Origin: Protonemura montana
Lineage: Eukaryota > Arthropoda > Insecta > Plecoptera > Nemouridae
Assembly: GCA_947568835.1 (NCBI GenBank)
Contig: OX387606.1
Location: forward strand, 5,332,001-5,396,000
Direction of reading: 5' to 3'
Length of the DNA: 64,000 nucleotides
Shown here: one piece after another, positions 2,993 to 63,825 of the stretch
How positions within the stretch are numbered: the first letter of the stretch is position 1
Layout of the letters: the number at the start of each line of letters is the position of its first letter
The notes under the pieces: generated by a model
Told to the model about the DNA's origin: nothing
Seen by the model: the letters and a program-made list of their open reading frames with translations, nothing else
Database searches by the model: none
Program-made: the position numbers and the translations under genes

Positions 2993-3025
2993 TAAGCGAT
3001 TGATACAGTCAAAAAGGAATTCAAG

Positions 3026-4213
3026 ATGGCGGCAGGACAGGTGGACACGTGCAAATCGCTCCGAGAAAAATTAGAATTACTCAGTGACATGGTGATGTGT
3101 GACTTGAAGAAGGAGTGTGAAAAGTTCGGGATACCTAAGACAGGCAAAAAAGAAGAGTTGGTGGATAGACTGAAGCTGGGAATTGAAGAAAAATTAGAAA
3201 AACTGGAAGAGGAAGGGGGCGGATCCACTGTAAGTAAGCTAACAACAACATCCATGATTACGCACTTACAAGCTATTCTGAAAGAAAAGGAACTTCTTAT
3301 TACGGAAAAGAATAAAAGAATTAAGGATCTGGAAGAAATAATTTCCCTACAGAAAGCTAGAATAAAGGATTGGGAAACGAAAATCTCAGCTGAAAGCTTA
3401 GCAAAGCAAGCCTTTAGTGAGCAACAACAGATATCAGCACAGTCAACCGTGGGGATGATGGTGGCGCGGCTAGAATCACCGATGAGAGGTGTATCACAAG
3501 GTCAACCCTTTCGTCGAAATGTAGGTCACCAGGTAAATCCCAACAACCTCGGTGCGGACAATAATGAGGAAGTAGCGGAAGGAACATCAGAGGTGAATAA
3601 CACGTCAACCCAAACAAACAGATCTGATCTATATCGTAGACTGTTGGGGGGAGGCAAAGAAGCGAAACCATCAGACACAGAAGCCGATAAAATGAAAAAA
3701 GAAAAAAACAGCCAAGTTTTAATATTCGGGGACTCGATGATCAGGGGAGCCGGAAAATTCTGCGAAAATGAAGGCTGCGAAGTCCATGTCTTTCCAGGAA
3801 TTAGAGCAAAGGAACTAGAAAAGAAGATAGTAGAGAGGAAAGAAGAGTCGCTCGATCCTAAAGTCATAGTTGTCAACGTGGGAACGAACAATATGAAAGC
3901 TCGGACTGGAACTCATCTGATGGTAGAAATGGGAGAACTTATAGATGAAGCGAGGAAAGTGTACAAAAATGCAAAATTTGTGATAGGTGGAATTGTGTAT
4001 CGGGATGACATGTACTATACAACGATAGACAAACTGAATGACAGCATCAAATGGATCTGCGAAGAGAAAGATGCTGTGTTCTACAACCCAAATATGAGAA
4101 TTTCAGGAAATGAGGCAGCTAGAGATGGGATTCATCTAAACCATGCGGGGGGAAGAATTTTGGGAAAGCTCATAATGGAGGAAGTGGAAAAGCTGCTTCA
4201 CACGGACACATAG
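3026..4213 (+). CDS. LINE ORF1: SAP, coiled coil and SGNH esterase
   Basis: A 395-residue ORF1 protein of the CR1-like LINE. Residues about 20-50 fit a SAP DNA/RNA-binding motif (LKKECEKFGIPKTGKKEELV). Residues about 55-125 are Lys/Glu-rich and look like a coiled coil. From about residue 230 an SGNH/GDSL hydrolase fold begins: GDSM carries the nucleophile block, GTNN is the third block, and DGIHLN near the end holds the catalytic Asp and His. In CR1-like elements ORF1 binds the element RNA and the esterase is thought to act on lipids or assist RNP assembly. The start ATG is preceded by AAG. Codon use is A-rich, unlike the GC-rich dynein exons. The SAP motif is an unusual addition. Confidence 0.85.
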   Translation: MAAGQVDTCKSLREKLELLSDMVMCDLKKECEKFGIPKTGKKEELVDRLKLGIEEKLEKLEEEGGGSTVSKLTTTSMITHLQAILKEKELLITEKNKRIKDLEEIISLQKARIKDWETKISAESLAKQAFSEQQQISAQSTVGMMVARLESPMRGVSQGQPFRRNVGHQVNPNNLGADNNEEVAEGTSEVNNTSTQTNRSDLYRRLLGGGKEAKPSDTEADKMKKEKNSQVLIFGDSMIRGAGKFCENEGCEVHVFPGIRAKELEKKIVERKEESLDPKVIVVNVGTNNMKARTGTHLMVEMGELIDEARKVYKNAKFVIGGIVYRDDMYYTTIDKLNDSIKWICEEKDAVFYNPNMRISGNEAARDGIHLNHAGGRILGKLIMEEVEKLLHTDT

Positions 4214-4244
4214 CAATCACGGGTACCCAAGTACCCAAGAGTAG

Positions 4245-4651
4245 TACCGTTGAGTGTAGGTTATAGGTAGAGTTTCAACGTCAATGTTAAAGTCTCTGCG
4301 TGAAAAATGACTACCTTACCGACAAAAATGCAGAGTACCGGACAATCACGTTAAGTGGAGCCACTGTCGTATGAATTTTAATTTCGATATTTCTCGTAGG
4401 TTAACTCACTTTTGAAACTTTTCATGCTCAAAAAATCTTCATCAATGTTTACCTCAACGATTGATACACATGTAACGATATTCATAAGCGAGTAACCTAC
4501 TATAAATATCGAAATTAAATTTCATGTTACAGTGGCTCCACTTAACGTGAACTTCCGGTACTCTGCATTTTTGTCGGTAAGGTAGTCATTTTTCACGCAG
4601 AGACTGTAACATTGACGTTGAAACTCTACCTATAACCTACACTCAACGGTA
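4245..4651. mobile_element. 407-bp palindromic MITE inside the LINE
   Basis: The two halves are near-perfect inverted copies (arms of about 165 bp), from TACCGTTGAGTGTAGG at the left to CCTACACTCAACGGTA at the right. The 13-bp sequence GTACCCAAGAGTA flanks it on both sides (4231-4243 and 4652-4664), with one extra G at 4244. The body encodes nothing. It separates ORF1 from ORF2 without breaking the long frame of either and supplies a stop (4619-4621) upstream of ORF2. A duplication of 13 bp is long for most cut-and-paste families, so I leave the superfamily open. Confidence 0.85.
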
Positions 4652-4756
4652 GTACCCAAGAGTAATCAGGATAGTAAAACTAATAAATCAGATATCAACA
4701 TTTTTTACCACAACATATGCAGTCTGCAGAACAAAATTGAAGAAATTGAGTTATAC

Positions 4757-7618
4757 ATGGATATGAAAACAGAAACAAGATATGACGTAATGTGTCTAGC
4801 CGAAACTTGGCTAAAGGAAGGACAGCAAGAGTCCGTCTCCATTCAAAATTTCACGCTCGCAGCAAGTTTTTCCAGAAAGAAGAAAATAGGTGGTGGCGTA
4901 GCCATATACGTGAGAGAAAACACACCCTGGACCTTCACACGAAGAACCGACATTGAAGCAATCGGCGAAGAATCGACTTTCGAGGTGAGTGGCATCGAGA
5001 TCAAAGGAGAAACTTCAACAATCATAGTAGTTCTTTATCGAACCCCAGATGAAAAGAACTTAGACAGCTTTTTTAAGAAACTGCATGGTCTTCTTTCACG
5101 CCTAAGCAAAGAAAAAAAACCAGTGTCAATTTGCGCAGATCTAAACATCGACATACTGCAAGAAAATAAAAAGAAATCCCGGCTCGTAGACATTTTACTT
5201 GAATTTAACATGAAAGCTCAAATAAAAACGCCAACAAGAGTTTCAGCATCATCATCAACTGCCATCGACAACATCTTAACAAACTTTAAATTAAAATATG
5301 ACCCGAAGATAGAAAAGACAGCAATATCTGACCATTACGGTCTTTCTTTTGTCCTACAAATTCATGAAACTAAAGAAAACGTGAAAATCCCGGGGTTTTA
5401 CAAGAAAAGACTTATAACGACAGACAAGCTAAACGATTTCACAAGGGATATCGAAATTCAGGACTGGACAGCTGTCTGCCACGGGACAACGGTGGACGAG
5501 AAATTCGCAGCATTTCAAGAAATCTTCAACTACCACTTCAATAACAATTTCCCTAAAAAAACTTTAAAAGTAGGCCCTGGGAAAAATACCCCAAAAAGAA
5601 CATGGAAAATTACGCCGGAGATAATCGAAGCAAGCAAGAAGAAACGACGTCTGTATCACCTGAGCTGCAAAAAAAATGGAAGTAAGCACAAGGAAGAACT
5701 GAAGAAAGCAAGAAAATCTTTAAGATCCTTAATCAAAGCCGAGAAGAGGAAACAAAACGACAAGTCGATCGCAGAAGCTGAAAATAAAAATAAAGCATTA
5801 TGGGACATTATAAACAAGTGTAGAAATAAATCGGTGTTAAGAAAACCAAAAACCATACAACTCGTAGTCAACGGTATAAAAATCCTGGATAATCAAATAA
5901 TAGCCAACCAATTTAATGACCACTTTGCGACAATCGCGGAATCTATCGTCGACACTCAAGCCATAAAAATACCTGAATGCATGAACCTAATTAAAAACGC
6001 TTGTCCTGAATACGCTGGGCCGGAATTCACCCTTACGCCGACAAATGAAAAAGAAATTATCGAAATTATTACGAATCTAAAAAACAAAAAATCAACAGGG
6101 TGGGACGAAATTCCTATTAAAGTCATAAAATGCGTAAGCACACTAATAGCAAAACCAATGGTTGATATATGCAATTTCTCTCTAATGACAGGGACATTCC
6201 CTTCTGCGGCAAAATGGTCAATTATTAAACCCCTTCATAAGAAAGGTGCGGACACAAATATGGATAACTACCGTCCAATTAGTCTAGTTACAAACTTCTC
6301 GAAAATATTTGAAAAAGTATTCTTGGTTAGGCTTCTAAGCTTCATTAAAGCCAATGGCATTTTATGTAAAAGTCAGCATGGGTTTCGGAAAGGTTTTTCA
6401 ACTACAACAGCAACTACCTGTCTGGTACAGACCGTAACCGAATGTCTCGAAAACAAAAAGGCAGTAGGTGTTATCTTCTGTGACCTTTCAAAAGCCTTTG
6501 ACACCATTAACACTTGTATCCTAATTATAAAATTAAATTTCTATGGCATAAAAGGGACTGCATTAAAATGGATCAAATCATACCTCTCGGAAAGAAAACA
6601 AAAAGTGAAACTGAATTTCAACGATGATGGTTCTGAATGGATAGCAAGTAAACACGGAATCCCGCAGGGGACCTTGCTGGCGCCAATCCTTTTTAGTTTA
6701 TATGTTAACGACCTGGCTTATGCAGCGACAAATGTAAACACGGATGTAATTTTATATGCGGATGATACGAGCTTAATAGTCGAAAGTAAAAATAGAAATG
6801 AACTGCTAGCAAACCTAAAAAGCTCTATCAGCAAGGCAGAAAGATGGTTCAAACCAAACCAACTGAAACTTAATCACGATAAAACCAATATTGTTATTTT
6901 CACGGGGAAAGGAAGCGCAAGCGAAACGGAAGTGATATGTGAGGGCAATACTATATATACCAAAGATACTTGTAACTTCTTGGGCACCACAATAGATCAC
7001 AGACTCATATGGAAAACCCATGCAAATAATCTTAGCTCCTCACTTAGCTCGGCCTGCTTTGTTTTATCCAACCTGACCAGTCATGTAAACAAAATCACCG
7101 TCAAGATCGCTTTCCACGCGCTGGTCCAAGCTAAAATTAGATATGGTATCATACTATGGGGTAGTTCGCCATCGGCTGAAAGAGTTTTTAAGAAGCAAAA
7201 AAGGGCTTTAAGAATAATCGGAAATTTAAGAAAAAGACAATCTTGTAAACCACTTTTCAAAGAACTTCAATTTTTAACTTTGACATGTATTTATATATTA
7301 GAACTGGTTTTATTTGTATTAGACAATATAAGTGATTTCAAGAAAAATTCCGATATTCATAATTTTAACACAAGATCCAACTACTTTCGCAAAAATAAAA
7401 CTAGACTCAACATTGCAGAACAAAGCCCAAAAAACATAGGAGTTCATATTTTCAATTATCTTCCGGACTGCATAAAAACGCTAACTGAAAAAAGGTCAGT
7501 TTTTAAAGAACAAACGAAGAGGTTCCTCTTAAATCATGGTTTTTATACTCTTGACGAATTTCTAGCATCAAAGGATTGTAAATGTATTTATTGTGTAGAT
7601 TTTATCTGTATAAATTGA
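4757..7618 (+). CDS. LINE ORF2: AP endonuclease and reverse transcriptase
   Basis: A 953-residue polyprotein counted from the first ATG; the frame is open back to 4622. The endonuclease domain includes the upstream codons for FYHNICSLQN, then AETW (catalytic Glu), GGGVAIYV, DLNID and the SDHYG block (catalytic Asp-His). The reverse transcriptase runs from about residue 430 to 730: NYRPISLV, SQHGFRKG, FCDLSKAFDT (first catalytic Asp), GIPQGTLLAPILF and YADDTSLIV (catalytic Asp pair). A C-terminal region without RNase H completes it. These proteins nick target DNA and copy the element RNA onto the exposed 3' end. The natural start may lie upstream of the MITE, because the endonuclease begins before the ATG at 4757. 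No internal stop is present. Confidence 0.9.
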   Translation: MDMKTETRYDVMCLAETWLKEGQQESVSIQNFTLAASFSRKKKIGGGVAIYVRENTPWTFTRRTDIEAIGEESTFEVSGIEIKGETSTIIVVLYRTPDEKNLDSFFKKLHGLLSRLSKEKKPVSICADLNIDILQENKKKSRLVDILLEFNMKAQIKTPTRVSASSSTAIDNILTNFKLKYDPKIEKTAISDHYGLSFVLQIHETKENVKIPGFYKKRLITTDKLNDFTRDIEIQDWTAVCHGTTVDEKFAAFQEIFNYHFNNNFPKKTLKVGPGKNTPKRTWKITPEIIEASKKKRRLYHLSCKKNGSKHKEELKKARKSLRSLIKAEKRKQNDKSIAEAENKNKALWDIINKCRNKSVLRKPKTIQLVVNGIKILDNQIIANQFNDHFATIAESIVDTQAIKIPECMNLIKNACPEYAGPEFTLTPTNEKEIIEIITNLKNKKSTGWDEIPIKVIKCVSTLIAKPMVDICNFSLMTGTFPSAAKWSIIKPLHKKGADTNMDNYRPISLVTNFSKIFEKVFLVRLLSFIKANGILCKSQHGFRKGFSTTTATTCLVQTVTECLENKKAVGVIFCDLSKAFDTINTCILIIKLNFYGIKGTALKWIKSYLSERKQKVKLNFNDDGSEWIASKHGIPQGTLLAPILFSLYVNDLAYAATNVNTDVILYADDTSLIVESKNRNELLANLKSSISKAERWFKPNQLKLNHDKTNIVIFTGKGSASETEVICEGNTIYTKDTCNFLGTTIDHRLIWKTHANNLSSSLSSACFVLSNLTSHVNKITVKIAFHALVQAKIRYGIILWGSSPSAERVFKKQKRALRIIGNLRKRQSCKPLFKELQFLTLTCIYILELVLFVLDNISDFKKNSDIHNFNTRSNYFRKNKTRLNIAEQSPKNIGVHIFNYLPDCIKTLTEKRSVFKEQTKRFLLNHGFYTLDEFLASKDCKCIYCVDFICIN

Positions 7619-8137: not shown

Positions 8138-8262
8138 ACACTATAACCGTCTCAAAAATTGATGCCCAAACGCGGACTCGAACTCCGATCTCCACCTTTC
8201 GCGGGTGTTGCTCTGAACCACTGAGCTATCTGGACACTGGCTTCTTGAGACGATTTTAGTGT
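8138..8262 (-). repeat. tRNA-like sequence bounded by inverted repeats
   Basis: On the minus strand, 8236 to 8163 is tRNA-sized. An acceptor-like GTCCAGA pairs with TTTGGGC, the D arm is TAGCTCAGTGGTTCAGAGC, and the B-box is GTTCGAGTCC. The anticodon arm keeps four of five pairs but has G where U33 belongs, and the T stem is broken, so it is not a normal tRNA gene. The unit is framed by imperfect inverted repeats, ACACTATAACCGTCTCAA at 8138 and its partner ending at 8262 (16 of 18 matching). It is a tRNA-derived SINE or MITE-like module related to the hairpin at 8407-8633. Confidence 0.65.
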
Positions 8263-37500: not shown

Positions 37501-37977
37501 TTTGGTAACTGATCAGAGAGGAATTGTGATGAGACATACCTGTTCACTATTTAATAAAAATCGTCATGCAAATTTGATCGTAAGCCACTTTGCTCAACCA
37601 TGTTTAAGCCACATAAATGACTTTCAAACGATATAATGGTCTCGTCCAGAGACACCTTCAACGTAAAACATCAAGGCAGAATGCAACAATAGGGTTTCCT
37701 CAACTTCCAAGAGCGCTAGGCGATCAATTGCTGAAATGTACTTTTCTACTCACGAGCAGATATGCCGGTGATGTGGCTCACCCCCGAGGAACGCCACGTG
37801 GTCCCGGAGTCCGGCATCTACGAATGCCCAGTCTACAAGACGCTCACTAGGGCAGGTACCCTCTCCACCACCGGCCACTCCACCAACTACGTACTGGCCA
37901 TCGAAGTGCCCAGCGATAAGCCACAGAGGCACTGGATAAAACGTGGTGTAGCCCTTATTTGCGCTCTTGACTACTAG
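8903..37977 (+). CDS. DNAH1: axonemal dynein heavy chain DNAH1, 3' portion (23 exons)
   Basis: The C-terminal 1472 codons of an inner-arm axonemal dynein heavy chain, the motor that slides doublet microtubules in cilia and sperm flagella. Exons: 8903-9023, 9711-9841, 10400-10505, 12632-12786, 15750-15938, 17803-17967, 18439-18655, 18990-19264, 20303-20613, 22841-23066, 24825-25020, 28257-28450, 28904-29058, 31027-31282, 31991-32101, 32486-32665, 33143-33394, 33791-33943, 34461-34729, 35167-35393, 36479-36660, 37127-37256, 37760-37977. All junction phases agree and no stop interrupts the frame. The DNAH1 call rests on the C-terminal segments [20 protein letters not shown] and [17 protein letters not shown], which match my memory of DNAH1 better than other axonemal chains. 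Exons are GC-rich, introns AT-rich. AAA1-AAA4 lie upstream of the window. All introns are GT-AG except one GC-AG. Confidence 0.85.
9380..9610. repeat. dispersed intronic repeat, copy 1
   Basis: The stretch TTCGTTCAAAAACC, followed by AACGAAAGCAAAGTG and GTGCTATTTTCTGGTCG, is loosely repeated in the same order and orientation at 22260-22370. It codes for nothing and its family is unknown. It lies in DNAH1 intron 1 of the window. Confidence 0.4.
11240..11870 (-). mobile_element. decayed LINE reverse-transcriptase 3' fragment
   Basis: On the minus strand the block at 11610-11657 translates as [12 protein letters not shown], followed downstream by charged Arg/Glu-rich sequence ending [19 protein letters not shown]. 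This is the familiar C-terminal signature of LINE RT proteins (YGCESW, then a PRGRPRKRW-like block). Stops and frame changes interrupt it, so it is an old 5'-truncated copy. On the plus strand it appears as the pyrimidine-rich tract of DNAH1 intron 3. Confidence 0.6.
12632..15938 (+). CDS. DNAH1: DNAH1 exons: microtubule-binding domain
   Basis: Exons 12632-12786 and 15750-15938. The first reads [20 protein letters not shown] and continues to the conserved [16 protein letters not shown], the tip of the stalk. The second has [19 protein letters not shown] and the helix-rich [19 protein letters not shown]. These are typical of the globular microtubule-binding domain that docks on tubulin. The exons are joined at a phase-0 boundary (KPNK/VPGKK). 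The 2.96-kb intron between them holds the 790-bp hAT element. Confidence 0.85.
13089..13150 (+). repeat. solo end of the GATGAGCGTAGC repeat
   Basis: TTGGATGAGCGTAGCAAGTG and the following AACAATTTGACTACCCAGG match the arms of the inverted-repeat element at 30212-30765. Only one end is seen here, in DNAH1 intron 4. Confidence 0.45.
13837..14626. mobile_element. non-autonomous hAT element
   Basis: The ends are inverted: the left starts CAGTGGCGGCTCGTGA and the right ends TCACGAGCCGCCCCTG. The 8-bp target duplication GTTATAAG is exact on both sides (13829-13836 and 14627-14634). CAG...CTG ends with an 8-bp duplication define the hAT superfamily. The 790-bp body has no transposase frame. It holds a 24-base C run (13887-13910), a short CATTTT repeat and GC-rich sequence. 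It sits in DNAH1 intron 4. Confidence 0.9.
14722..14760 (+). repeat. 5S-SINE tail fragment
   Basis: CAGTGCGTCGTTAAACACCA followed by CAAATAATAATAATAT is the exact 3' tail of the 5S-SINE family with nothing of its body. It is either a severely 5'-truncated copy or the 3' end of the partner LINE. Confidence 0.65.
17803..18655 (+). CDS. DNAH1: DNAH1 exons: stalk helix CC2 and strut
   Basis: Exons 17803-17967 and 18439-18655. [20 protein letters not shown] marks the return from the microtubule-binding domain, followed by Ala-rich and charged helical sequence for coiled coil 2. The second exon ends with [14 protein letters not shown] and the start of AAA5 ([12 protein letters not shown]). Acceptors are TTACAG/GTGTCC and GATAG/GTGCAA; donors are GTAAGT and GTCAGT. 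The exon 7-8 junction splits an Ala codon. Confidence 0.85.
18990..20613 (+). CDS. DNAH1: DNAH1 exons: AAA5 module
   Basis: Exons 18990-19264 and 20303-20613. The first has [18 protein letters not shown] and the stretch ending [18 protein letters not shown]. The second has [18 protein letters not shown], then [30 protein letters not shown] and [13 protein letters not shown], the classic AAA5 core. AAA5 in dyneins is a structural, non-hydrolysing module. The intron carries SINE copy B, whose tail begins about 40 bp after the donor. Confidence 0.9.
19305..19735 (-). repeat. 5S rRNA-derived SINE, copy B
   Basis: This is the copy with the best 5S head. On the minus strand it starts CCGAACGGTTTGTCATGTTG, continues GGAAACACCGGTTCTCG and then the A-box and C-box regions, matching 5S rRNA from near its first base. 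The body and the TGCGTCGTTAAACACCA tail follow. It lies in DNAH1 intron 8, antisense to the gene, and its tail starts about 40 bp after the exon donor. Confidence 0.88.
20750..20845. repeat. AT-rich simple repeat (TATAATATAATATG)
   Basis: A low-complexity run of TATAATATAATATGTATAAT type in DNAH1 intron 9. Confidence 0.7.
22046..22074. repeat. (ATTT)n microsatellite
   Basis: About seven tandem TTTA units in DNAH1 intron 9. Confidence 0.85.
22190..22385. repeat. dispersed intronic repeat, copy 2
   Basis: Diverged partner of 9380-9610, sharing ATTCGTTCAAAACCCG, AACCAAAGCAATGTG and ATGCTATTTTCGGGTCG in the same order. Non-coding. Confidence 0.4.
22488..22566. repeat. collapsed copy of the tRNA-like hairpin family
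   Basis: TATTATTAACAACACTAT joins directly to AATAAAATACCCCGCGCATT and the arm end TTTCATCCTA. This looks like the 8407-8633 hairpin after its centre was deleted, a common fate of long palindromes. Confidence 0.65.
22600..22735. repeat. small hairpin MITE
   Basis: CCAGAATTACAATATTTAGA near 22601 faces its imperfect inverted partner ending GACATTCTAATTCTAG near 22731. The non-coding unit is about 135 bp. The adjacent AGTTTTTAGACTCATGTCTA is also present near 13014, indicating a dispersed repeat. Confidence 0.5.
22841..25020 (+). CDS. DNAH1: DNAH1 exons: AAA5 to AAA6 linker and buttress helices
   Basis: Exons 22841-23066 and 24825-25020. The first has [20 protein letters not shown] and the helical [11 protein letters not shown], the buttress-bearing part that contacts the stalk. 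The second has [20 protein letters not shown], then [20 protein letters not shown] and [13 protein letters not shown]. The preceding exon ends AG and this one begins with T, restoring Ser. Strong donors GTAAGA and GTGAGT are used. Confidence 0.88.
23836..24237 (+). repeat. 5S rRNA-derived SINE, copy C
   Basis: Starts inside the 5S head at AGTTAAGCAACACTGCGC, so it lacks the first third of the 5S part. It continues through TTGGATGGGTGACC, the body, the CATCATCATC block and the tail GTCGTTAAACACCA. It lies in sense orientation in DNAH1 intron 10. Confidence 0.85.
25154..27633. mobile_element. 2.48-kb foldback element with repeat-built termini
   Basis: The ends are long inverted repeats (25154-25430 and 27390-27633) built from tandem units around GGACAATTTGCCAG. 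The left arm has one unit more than the right. ACCCTAACTGGC (12 bp) flanks both sides (25142-25153 and 27634-27645). The interior has no transposase. It has a roughly 250-bp segment present twice (25555-25830 and 25905-26160) and seven 41-bp tandem repeats. Long termini made of short tandem repeats resemble Drosophila FB/Galileo-type foldback elements, but the family is not established here. It fills most of DNAH1 intron 11. Confidence 0.85.
26276..26562. repeat. 41-bp minisatellite, 7 copies
   Basis: Seven head-to-tail units built on GATCTCAAATAACCTGGATA plus GAGCATAGGATCCAGCCAGC, 287 bp in total. The units are nearly identical and have no spacers. It sits at the centre of the foldback element. 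Confidence 0.95.
28257..29058 (+). CDS. DNAH1: DNAH1 exons: pre-AAA6 helical region
   Basis: Exons 28257-28450 and 28904-29058. The first reads [20 protein letters not shown] and [20 protein letters not shown]; the second reads [19 protein letters not shown]. In dynein heavy chains this helical segment leads into AAA6. Phase joins at both sides (split Gly before, split Asn after). The intron before the first exon is 3.2 kb long because it hosts the foldback element. Confidence 0.85.
30212..30765. mobile_element. inverted-repeat element, family unknown
   Basis: The left arm reads AATGAGCGTAGCGAGAAAAT and continues to TTTGCTCTCTTCCGGCCAAA. The right arm, read on the minus strand, is TTGGATGAGCGTAGCGAACG and continues to TTTGCTCTCTACCGGCCAAA. 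The arms are about 90-100 bp and imperfect; the centre is AT-rich and non-coding. A solo end is at 13089. It lies in DNAH1 intron 13. Confidence 0.6.
31027..33394 (+). CDS. DNAH1: DNAH1 exons: AAA6
   Basis: Exons 31027-31282, 31991-32101, 32486-32665 and 33143-33394. They encode [81 protein letters not shown] and [17 protein letters not shown], all hallmark dynein AAA6 blocks. The third exon ends ATCAAG followed by GCAAGC, a GC-type donor, and joins the fourth ([11 protein letters not shown]) in phase. A GTAGGT inside the fourth exon at about 33213 is not used, because reading continues through it into conserved protein. Confidence 0.9.
31430..31985 (-). mobile_element. decayed LINE 3' fragment
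   Basis: Minus-strand reading gives [20 protein letters not shown], the typical end of Jockey/CR1-type RT proteins, preceded in another frame by [17 protein letters not shown]. Frames are broken, so it is an old 5'-truncated copy. It ends close to the DNAH1 acceptor at 31991 in intron 14. Confidence 0.6.
33791..37977 (+). CDS. DNAH1: DNAH1 exons: C-terminal domain and stop
   Basis: Six exons (33791-33943, 34461-34729, 35167-35393, 36479-36660, 37127-37256, 37760-37977). Landmarks are [71 protein letters not shown] and [16 protein letters not shown], ending in the stop TAG at 37975. This is the long C-terminal domain of axonemal heavy chains. AATAAA follows four bases after the stop (37981) and again at 38026, so the 3' UTR is probably very short. 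Confidence 0.92.
35394..36478. other. DNAH1 intron 20, no features
   Basis: Plain AT-rich intron of 1085 bp. I see no exon, repeat boundary or RNA gene in it. Confidence 0.6.
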
Positions 37978-38558
37978 GAAAATAAACCTGAATTGGCTGC
38001 TGCAAGTTTGTTTCATTTCAAGAGAAATAAAATTTAATGATTGGGACACAGGTTGGTCTGATAAATACTACCTAGTACCTTAAAACCCCATTAAGGTGAC
38101 AGAGCTGTGTAAGAGAAATGAAAGAAGAAAATGAGAATTATAATTTTTTGCATTCTTTGCCTACAATTTCTCAATTGAATAAGAGATTGAGATTGTGCAA
38201 GAGAGACAGCAATTGAATTAGCATGGTGAATATCCTTTCTTTCTCACTCAGTGTAACCAACAGGTTTGTTAATTACAGAGAATGTTAATAATTTAATAGT
38301 TTTAGATTAACATCACTCAAAAAGTGTAAATATCATTTTGTGTTGTACCACTTCCTATGTACAGTAGCAAGTTACACACATTTTAAAATTTAGACGACTT
38401 ACGACCGACGAGACAAAGTAAGAGATACCTGTTAGAATCTCGTACAATAATAACCACGTTGAAAAGATTTTTTCAAAATAACTCATAAAAAAAATGAACA
38501 TGAACATTTGTATTTAACAGTGACTTTAATTTTCTGATAGGGACACATACAAGTAGAA
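37978..38558. other. convergent intergenic region
   Basis: Between the DNAH1 stop and the stop of the opposite-strand SLIMP gene. It holds the DNAH1 AATAAA signals (37981, 38026) and, on the minus strand, an ATTAAA at 38525-38530 placed 29 nt past the SLIMP stop. The rest is AT-rich and unremarkable. Confidence 0.65.
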
Positions 38559-39962
38559 TCAGCCTCCAGGGACAAATTGCTGGAGGGAATCCGGTATGGG
38601 GAATTTGTCAGTAGAAGGGCTTTGCTCTAGCAAACATGCTAAAAGCCTCGGCACACACACTGCATTTCCAGACACAACGTTGACATACTTTGTTTCCGAA
38701 GTGACTGAATCTTGGTAGCTAGTCAGCAGTCGTTTGCTCACAAAATCACCGCAAAGACAAACATTACCCACTTCCACATAGCACTGCAAGTATGTAGAGA
38801 ACATCTGTACACTGGCACGTAAACTTTCCCAGTGTTTTAGGTCCGGAGCAGGAAGAAAAGCGATGCGGAAATGGCAGTTGAGATGTTCGTAAGCAGATAT
38901 TAGCAGCTTAACTGCTTGTTCGAATTCGTACATCATGCTGTCAGTAGAAGCCGTTGCAATAAACATTTCGAGTGCAGAACCCTGCCAAACATTAAATAGA
39001 CCTCCATTGGGTAGACTATTATTTGGACTGTATTGCCGGCCTAGCGTGAAGTATTTTGATGGCAGCGATTGAGGCGTGATGACTTGCTTTGCGTGGAAAG
39101 CAGAAAAAGAGACTAGAGAAGCACCACCCACTAAATGAAGTCGGTTGTCGTCATTTACGATTTCATCGTCACTTTTAAGGATAAGCGATTCTCCAGCATC
39201 TTTGTGCTTGATGCCAACTCCTTCAACGGTCACACTTCTTCCAAAATCAGCATTGCTTATTTGAACAAAATTTGCATCTTGAAATTGCTTCTCAAAAAAG
39301 TAAAGAGCTCCCATCTCAAAAAGAGCCCCATCACTAACCAAGAAGTAGCTTGTTTCATTTTCATATCTCAAAACATTCAATCTCTGTCCCACCTGAATGT
39401 GGCTTTCTGGAGCTTTGAAATTCGGCCTGGGTTTGTTCACATAAAATACCGTTGGCTTGCATTCGGGTGTATCTGGATGTAGATCGTTAGGCAAAGAGAG
39501 AACCTTCAGCATTGCATTCCCTTCAAGATCCCACAGGCCTTTCATCAGAGACTTAAGATCATCCCTGATCAGTTTGCCCTCATGCCGATATTGCTTTTCT
39601 TTCTGCGCTCGTACTTCTTCTGTGTCGCCGCTAGATTTCAAGTCATTCATCCTGCTAACTACTTCGGTTCGGCACTTTTCGAGTATAATTTTATGTCCGT
39701 TTACCTCCTTGTACATTTCCAGTAATATTTTTAACTTATCTATGTTAATAGATAAGCCCCGAAGCTCCATATTTCTTTTAAGCTTGTGAATATCTTGGAA
39801 TCTGTTCTCATAATCCATGTGAGGAGTAAGAACAGAAAATGTTTCACTCGCCTTGTCACCAGTTATGTACAACGCAGAACTACTGTATCGACGTACTGTA
39901 CAAAAATGTGACATGATACGGCCTCTTACTCGGGAAAATGAGATGTTACAGAACGAAGCCAT
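38559..39962 (-). CDS. SLIMP: SLIMP, seryl-tRNA synthetase-like mitochondrial protein
   Basis: A single-exon gene of 467 codons. The N-terminus (MASFCNISFSRVRG, then VRRYSSS) is Arg-rich without acidic residues, as in a mitochondrial targeting peptide. Residues about 60-150 form the long helical arm of seryl-tRNA synthetases. The rest follows the class II synthetase fold: a degenerate motif 2 region (LGRQYSPNN to LFNVWQGSALEMF) and a motif 3-like stretch (NAVCVPRLLACLLE). The usual motif 2 residues of active enzymes are missing, which points to SLIMP, the non-aminoacylating paralogue known from insects. SLIMP supports mitochondrial SerRS and LON-dependent mtDNA control. I chose the ATG at 39962; an upstream TTG in frame is not a plausible start. 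Its start lies 46 bp after the ZNF593 stop. Confidence 0.82.
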   Translation of the reverse strand: MASFCNISFSRVRGRIMSHFCTVRRYSSSALYITGDKASETFSVLTPHMDYENRFQDIHKLKRNMELRGLSINIDKLKILLEMYKEVNGHKIILEKCRTEVVSRMNDLKSSGDTEEVRAQKEKQYRHEGKLIRDDLKSLMKGLWDLEGNAMLKVLSLPNDLHPDTPECKPTVFYVNKPRPNFKAPESHIQVGQRLNVLRYENETSYFLVSDGALFEMGALYFFEKQFQDANFVQISNADFGRSVTVEGVGIKHKDAGESLILKSDDEIVNDDNRLHLVGGASLVSFSAFHAKQVITPQSLPSKYFTLGRQYSPNNSLPNGGLFNVWQGSALEMFIATASTDSMMYEFEQAVKLLISAYEHLNCHFRIAFLPAPDLKHWESLRASVQMFSTYLQCYVEVGNVCLCGDFVSKRLLTSYQDSVTSETKYVNVVSGNAVCVPRLLACLLEQSPSTDKFPIPDSLQQFVPGG

Positions 39963-40008
39963 ATTTTGCAAAAGCAAGAAACTTTTACAGAGAATAATTT
40001 GTTACTGT

Positions 40009-40726
40009 TTATTCCATTTTCACATCACCATCTTTGTCTACCTTTTGCATTTTTATGGGGACTTCCTCTGGTAAAGGAGTTTGCGTTTGCATCTTGCGTT
40101 TCTTGGGTTGAACAAAATTACCCAAACCTGCGGCACGCTCGGAATCTTCAATGGAGTAAGGCTCAAGTTCCAATGCTTTCATGCGACGCTTATGGACCTT
40201 GGTTCGGAAATGCTCAGTCAAAGCCTGGTCATCGATGAAGTAACGTCTGGAAGTTGGAGCCGTTAGTAGGTACATCGATTTTGCACATCTTACATGTGGT
40301 TACTTGTGAAAAATACATCTAAAAATATATGCTGAACCTTCAAGTTGTACTTACGCACAGTGAAGACAATAAAACTGGGCAGTTCCAGGTTTGTCAAAAT
40401 CAACCTCTTGGTTCAGTAACTTTTCAGCATTGACGACTTTTAAATCGCCGTCGATCTAAGGATAACATTTTAAGGTTATAATATTTTATGATGAATTGTG
40501 CCTAGTTTGCCCTTAGAAACGCAAAAATAAGTTTGAGGAGAAACAGTTTCATGGAAGATGTGGAGCCCAGAGTTCAGATGAACTTGCCAAAAAACAAGGG
40601 AGGAGGAATGTATTTTTTTTAATTTCTTACTTGGTCCAAATCTTTTGTTCGCCTCTTTGTCCTCCAACTTTTTTTCATGTGTAGATTGCCATTATGTCGT
40701 TTCTTTCGGCTATACGGAGCTGGCAT
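40009..40726 (-). CDS. ZNF593: ZNF593/Bud20-type zinc-finger protein, 3 exons
   Basis: Minus-strand exons 40726-40631, 40455-40355 and 40246-40009. The N-terminus MPAPYSRKKRHNGNLHMKKS is highly basic, followed by TKRRTKDLDQ. The second and third exons form one C2H2 finger, FYCLHCARYF...HFRTKVH, with spacing C-x2-C-x12-H-x5-H. After it comes the conserved MKALELEPYSIEDSERAAGL. This order is diagnostic of ZNF593 (yeast Bud20), a shuttling factor that rides with pre-60S ribosomal subunits to help nuclear export. Introns have GTAAGA and GTAAGT donors and in-phase junctions. AATAAA overlaps the stop codon, so the 3' UTR would be tiny. Confidence 0.92.
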
Positions 40727-41617
40727 TGTAAAGTTATCTACTCTTTTCTAGGATACGTTTGTAGTTAAATAAATAGAGAAAATAGTCATACAATTTTCCA
40801 AAATCCTTACTGAGTATTCCTTCACACGTGTTCTACAATGGCGACAATCGTTTCGACCACATATGACGACACTGAGCAATCAACGTCGTAATTTGCTTTC
40901 GGACATCGCTAACAGAGTGCGACAGGAGTCGTTTCCCAAATAAAGATTCTAATAGAGCGGCATACAGTTCCGTAACAAGGAAATATTATCGAGATAGTTC
41001 CTGGCATAGGTTTACTTTATTTCGCTAAGTATTTAGATAGAAATATATTTCGACAAATTTAGTATGAGTTAACTAGCTGCAAAGTGAATACAGGAAACTG
41101 TGGTGACCAAAACATGTTAAGCAAAGCTATTTTGATCGCACAAATACGGCATGATGGCGTCCGCCATTTTCATCTATGACACTCCGCGTCGCACCAAGCT
41201 TTCTTAGTTTTGAGTGCTAGTTTACTGCGTGTGAAACCATATCGCCATCAGATACACAGATAATTGTGCGTGTGTCAACAATCAAGATGGATTACACGAG
41301 GTTATCGTGCGTGTTATCAACGAGATCGTCTTCAAGCGAGTTTGGTGGTTCTGCGCATTTTACTGCTGCGAAGTGAATGCAACGTCGAGCGAGCACAGGG
41401 ATTCGGATATCGAGTCCACCCTAACTACTTGTGCGGGAGTCCAGTCGCGAACAATACCCTTCGTCGGTTGGGACCTAACTGCAGACTTGCTATCTTTCCG
41501 AAGTGGATCTGCTATTCCCGATGGTCGCGTCGCGCGGATCGGGAACAACTATCGATGGGTAAATCCGTCGTCGTACACGTGTGGCGGCCGTAAACAACGA
41601 GTGGTGTTCGTGTTATA
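40727..41617. promoter_or_regulatory. divergent ZNF593/ARID2 promoter region
   Basis: The start codons of ZNF593 (minus) and ARID2 (plus) are 891 bp apart, so both promoters and 5' UTRs must lie here. GTCCGCCATTTTC at 41159-41171 reads on the minus strand as GAAAATGGCGGAC, a good YY1/Pho-type site often found near housekeeping start sites. No TATA box is obvious. The 41264-41617 part lacks stops in one frame but has no similarity I recognise and is probably the ARID2 5' UTR. Confidence 0.55.

Positions 41618-63825
<22,208 letters not shown>

Follow-up and report, generated by a model that had tools for sequence, protein, structure and literature searches.

Two protein-coding genes, one for the zinc finger protein ZNF593 and one for the SerRS-like protein SLIMP, follow each other so closely on one strand of the Protonemura montana genome that the question arises whether they share a messenger RNA. 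The window, i.e. the whole stretch of DNA that was analysed, comprises 64,000 nucleotides of contig OX387606.1, and positions 38559-40726 are bounded exactly by the SLIMP stop and the ZNF593 start. An earlier note on this DNA had placed the ZNF593 stop at 40009 and the SLIMP ATG at 39962 on the same strand with 46 bp in between, and these coordinates agreed to the base. It had further described an AATAAA that overlaps the ZNF593 stop and a SLIMP gene free of introns; we found the hexamer at 40013-40008 of the minus strand, and the SLIMP coding region is one uninterrupted frame. From the data below ZNF593 and SLIMP are probably two distinct genes in a densely packed region, with a dicistronic mRNA as the main rival. 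The features of the locus are as follows.

40631..40726, minus strand: ZNF593 exon 1, ATG at 40726
40355..40455, minus strand: ZNF593 exon 2
40009..40246, minus strand: ZNF593 exon 3, stop codon TAA at 40011-40009
40008..40013, minus strand: AATAAA over the ZNF593 stop, likely the ZNF593 poly(A) signal (predicted use)
39963..40008, minus strand: spacer between ZNF593 and SLIMP, 46 bp, 26% GC, no ATG
38559..39962, minus strand: SLIMP coding region, 467 codons, no introns
38525..38530, minus strand: ATTAAA, 28 nt past the SLIMP stop, likely the SLIMP poly(A) signal (predicted use)
37762..37977, plus strand: C-terminal coding end of a dynein heavy chain gene, Dynein_C match, frame counted from an inner ATG

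The ZNF593 reading frame has 144 codons and both introns are of the GT-AG type. SLIMP is read in a single open frame from the ATG at 39962-39960 to a stop that ends at 38559. Because this frame differs from that of ZNF593 (46 mod 3 = 1), readthrough of the stop codon is unable to fuse the two proteins. On the plus strand the dynein heavy chain gene is convergent with SLIMP and has its end at 37977.

The gene names given in the earlier note were upheld by domain, structure-sequence and paralogue comparisons. The spliced ZNF593 protein contains a jaz-type C2H2 finger (Pfam zf-C2H2_jaz, PF12171, E 4e-11). Its top match among solved structures was zinc finger protein 593 (6lss, E 6.9e-25, residues 16-129 of 144); Bud20 chains were matched with an E of about 1e-22, and the likeness reaches beyond the finger. 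ZNF593/Bud20 is a pre-60S factor, and the window protein resembles it in carrying a single jaz-type C2H2 zinc finger, with no difference noted. ZNF593 was a single gene in a search of the genome (258 Mb in 34 contigs), the one further match having an E of 0.41.

The SLIMP protein has the core of a class II synthetase (Pfam tRNA-synt_2b, PF00587) and matches the mitochondrial SerRS 7u2a with an E of 2.3e-26 over residues 36-464. We compared it by alignment with two further SerRS genes from this genome. One of these, L006 (1390-2892), has Seryl_tRNA_N and tRNA-synt_2b domains in a single intronless open frame of about 500 codons and is likely the cytosolic SerRS. The other, L007 (471-2010; C3:2.06 Mb), has tRNA-synt_2b in its last exon, a shortened N-terminal part and at least two coding introns, and is likely SerRS2alpha. 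In the alignment the segment that we take to be motif 2 reads CFRQEVG in the cytosolic enzyme, CYRAETS in SerRS2alpha and QYSPNNS in SLIMP, and RGIFRVHQF is changed to GGLFNVWQG in SLIMP. Thus SLIMP has lost motif 2 residues in comparison with both other SerRS genes; the arginine of the segment presumed to be motif 3 is retained. The long N-terminal region of SLIMP, in which a coiled-coil that is lost in the partner SerRS2alpha would be expected, aligns to 7u2a, and SerRS2alpha is shorter in this part. By eye the N-terminus of SLIMP resembles a presequence, as would suit import into mitochondria.

In PMC10570016 SLIMP is described as the SerRS2-like subunit of the animal mitochondrial SerRS, a paralogue of SerRS2 whose catalytic pocket has collapsed. 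The window protein fits this description as far as its predicted sequence goes: it is likewise a mitochondrial SerRS homologue that has lost motif 2 residues, the genome has a likely SerRS2alpha, the expected heterodimer partner, at another place, and no differences of the protein were noted. Loss of catalytic pocket residues was judged here from the motifs.

Do the 3'-ends of the genes point to one or to two mRNAs? The AATAAA at 40013-40008 covers two bases of the last ZNF593 codon, the stop codon and the next base, and is the sole AATAAA on the minus strand within 41000-38300. A T-rich stretch follows each hexamer, with 17 of 36 bases being T for ZNF593 and 18 of 36 for SLIMP. In all five genes checked, a small sample, the nearest AATAAA or ATTAAA was less than 100 nt from the stop; the distances were -5 nt for ZNF593, 3 for dynein, 14 for SerRS2alpha, 28 for SLIMP and 99 for the cytosolic SerRS. 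The chance level was estimated by 20,000 first-order simulations of the 61 bases that surround a TAA stop, -12 to +46. Either of the two hexamers occurred in 15.3% of the simulations and AATAAA in 9.0%; in 3.9% of all simulations an AATAAA lay precisely on the stop. The hexamer over the ZNF593 stop is thus mildly unusual by chance at most. Because hexamers lie near the stop in five of five genes and arise by chance in about 15%, the one at the ZNF593 stop is both a plausible signal and an ordinary one. A hexamer close to both stops leans towards separate mRNAs.

On balance we favour the model that ZNF593 and SLIMP are two unrelated housekeeping genes, for each of which the genome searches gave a single copy, which are arranged head to tail in a densely packed region and are transcribed separately. 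Transcription of ZNF593 would begin at a promoter upstream of 40726, and its mRNA would mostly be cleaved and polyadenylated inside the 46-bp spacer, guided by the AATAAA. SLIMP would mostly be expressed from a start of its own, in the last exon of ZNF593 or in the spacer, and its transcript would end after the ATTAAA 28 nt past the stop. Some readthrough RNA spanning both genes may occur. The coordinates, the identities of the genes and the hexamers are the directly observed part of this model; the cleavage and the SLIMP start site are predicted.

The distribution of start codons fits such an arrangement. The ZNF593 coding sequence has ten ATGs beyond its start, the last at 40017; thus in an mRNA that begins between 40017 and 39963 the SLIMP ATG would be the first, whereas on a dicistronic mRNA many ATGs would precede it. 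With an A at -3 and a G at +4, the SLIMP ATG has a context that favours initiation by direct scanning. A SLIMP promoter inside ZNF593, one of the options of the earlier note, survives, as does the dicistronic mRNA: the hexamers and the ATG-rich first cistron lean to separate mRNAs, but no promoter motif was found. Between 41100 and 39963 neither a six-of-six initiator nor a TATA box nor a full DRE was present. Exon 3 has one five-of-six initiator with a CA core, at 40211, and the spacer has none. Since ZNF593 is not preceded by a six-of-six initiator either, the promoter scan carries little weight. An ATCGAT core at 40279 in intron 2 and another, 43 bp away, at 40236 in exon 3 were discarded as evidence for an internal promoter since neither is a full DRE; the core is not enriched in the window (11 versus 16.0 expected). 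It counts against the separate-gene model that a spacer of 46 bp is very short for separate 3'- and 5'-ends. Moreover, the hexamer at the ZNF593 stop, which was cited in favour of separate genes, could be due to chance.

A less probable but serious possibility is that SLIMP is translated from a mature dicistronic mRNA, made from the ZNF593 promoter and retaining both coding regions, by internal entry or reinitiation; monocistronic ZNF593 mRNA might be produced as well via the early poly(A) signal. The SLIMP promoter motif that was not found and the spacer without an ATG argue for it, while the AATAAA preceding SLIMP argues against it. So does a first cistron of 144 codons with ten further ATGs, which blocks leaky scanning, together with a spacer that leaves little room for reinitiation. 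Reinitiation is inefficient after long cistrons. Because the ten ATGs make scanning through to SLIMP implausible, internal entry or reinitiation would be needed.

The dicistronic pairs of Drosophila melanogaster offer a comparison (FlyBase; PMC4528330). There are 159 such pairs in fly annotation release 6.04. Where a fly locus yields polycistronic transcripts exclusively, stop and next start are -34 to 319 nt apart (PMC4528330), and the 46 nt found here lie within this range. As in the fly pairs, two unrelated coding regions share a strand. Unlike them, the pair in the window has a poly(A) hexamer before the second gene and is known from genome sequence alone. PMC4528330 also reports that most fly dicistronic pairs misfit a scanning mechanism too, so a dicistronic mRNA is conceivable in spite of the many ATGs of ZNF593. 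On the other hand, just 45 of the 159 pairs seem to yield both products exclusively from dicistronic transcripts (PMC4528330). Taken together, the dicistronic mRNA considered in the earlier note gained from the spacing and the absent SLIMP promoter motif and lost through the hexamers and the ATG-rich upstream cistron. That SLIMP is made in this lineage solely from a ZNF593-SLIMP dicistronic mRNA by internal initiation of translation appears quite unlikely to us. The coupling of 60S export and mitochondrial maintenance, which the earlier note had attached to a shared mRNA, was not substantiated; nothing beyond the adjacency of the genes speaks for it. A literature search for ZNF593 together with SLIMP found no paper.

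The origin of SLIMP is a separate matter, and a retrocopy would be compatible with either transcript model. According to this explanation SLIMP would have inserted 3' of ZNF593 as a fairly recent retrocopy and taken the place of a parent gene with introns. The uninterrupted SLIMP coding region, compared with at least two introns in the likely partner paralogue SerRS2alpha, is in line with it. Yet the likely cytosolic SerRS is also intronless, so an intronless SLIMP is unexceptional among its kin in this genome. The whole-genome search with SLIMP yielded three matches at E ≤1, namely SLIMP's own gene, L006 and L007, and thus neither a second copy nor a parent, although a much decayed parent could be missed by it. 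There is no poly(A) tract, the longest run of A within 400 nt past the SLIMP stop being 6.

An 11-bp direct repeat, ATTCTCTGTAA, flanks SLIMP, as might be expected of a target-site duplication; one copy is at 39995 in the spacer and the other at 38283, about 275 bp beyond the stop of the gene. If a 6-base gap is allowed, the repeat extends to 16 matched bases. With two Markov models and 2000 simulated pairs for each, such a repeat turned up in 0.6% and 1.4% of the pairs. Repeats of 11 or more bases occurred in 18 of 3360 windows of the same geometry and in 36 of 1454 AT-matched ones, and the gapped score was reached in 15 of 650 AT-matched windows; these chance figures are rough because the windows overlap and contain this locus. 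Two exact 12-nt direct repeats are present elsewhere within the same 3.3 kb. At a chance level of about 0.5-2.5% the repeat is not clearly beyond chance, and we set it aside as a target-site duplication and regard it as a weak lead. In addition, the family arose by a SerRS2 duplication at the root of the bilaterians according to PMC10570016. Thus a recent retrocopy, the third option of the earlier note, is poorly supported, with no second copy, no poly(A) tract and no clear target-site duplication, and we consider it highly improbable.

Hardly any weight can be given to a shared promoter with alternative splicing, by which the SLIMP mRNA would drop part of ZNF593 exon 3 through a site nearer to the SLIMP start. 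Two acceptor-like sites within exon 3, which end at 40225 and 40068, would suit such an event. No acceptor in the spacer passed the screen used, which was a crude one, since true acceptors and candidates all scored 10 of 16 pyrimidines. Furthermore, a splice from exon 1 would retain the ZNF593 start codon. Alternative splices that disrupt a cistron are known in fly loci (PMC4528330). A spliced-leader operon seems improbable: no acceptor in the 46-bp spacer passed the same crude screen, and the mitochondrial tRNA order, which we take to be ancestral for Pancrustacea, points to an insect or a near relative of insects.

A truly dicistronic pair would link cytosolic ribosome maturation with mitochondrial translation on a single transcript; if SLIMP were made solely in this way, the output of a pre-60S export factor would be tied to a subunit needed for charging mitochondrial serine tRNAs. 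The long ATG-rich first cistron would then be a test case for internal initiation in an animal, and the locus one more case of a known kind. As it stands the ZNF593-SLIMP pair is an example of tight gene packing, and we found no feature that marks it as a new kind of system.

RNA families were absent from 37900-41800 at gathering scores. A search for SLIMP relatives among viral contigs, with stray animal DNA in mind, gave one pattern match and none was confirmed.

The mitochondrial contig of the assembly (C34, 15,885 bp) has tRNA-Leu(TAA) between COX1 and COX2, and we take its tRNA order to be the ancestral pancrustacean arrangement. At 62459-62619 the window contains a 161-bp nuclear copy of a part of COX1 that is 98.8% identical to C34:3465-3625. 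Further COX1 copies are located in nuclear contig C4 at 5760925-5762262 (L008) and 5776811-5777755 (L010), about 0.36 Mb beyond the window end; the L008 copy scores 455.5 bits, equal to the copy of the mitochondrial contig. These copies are perhaps a large recent mitochondrial insertion, or else an assembly join.

At 2996-7618 the window has a likely non-LTR retrotransposon with a frame of 405 aa (SAP and GDSL-like) and one of 998 aa (reverse transcriptase). A tRNA-Ser(CGA) gene follows on the minus strand at 8161-8236, about 540 bp past the end of the second frame. Finally, 53277-62123 on the plus strand contains exons which matched no Pfam family in the three frames tried (53277-53684, 60863-61570 and 61662-62123) and which, by eye, we presume to be ARID2-like.
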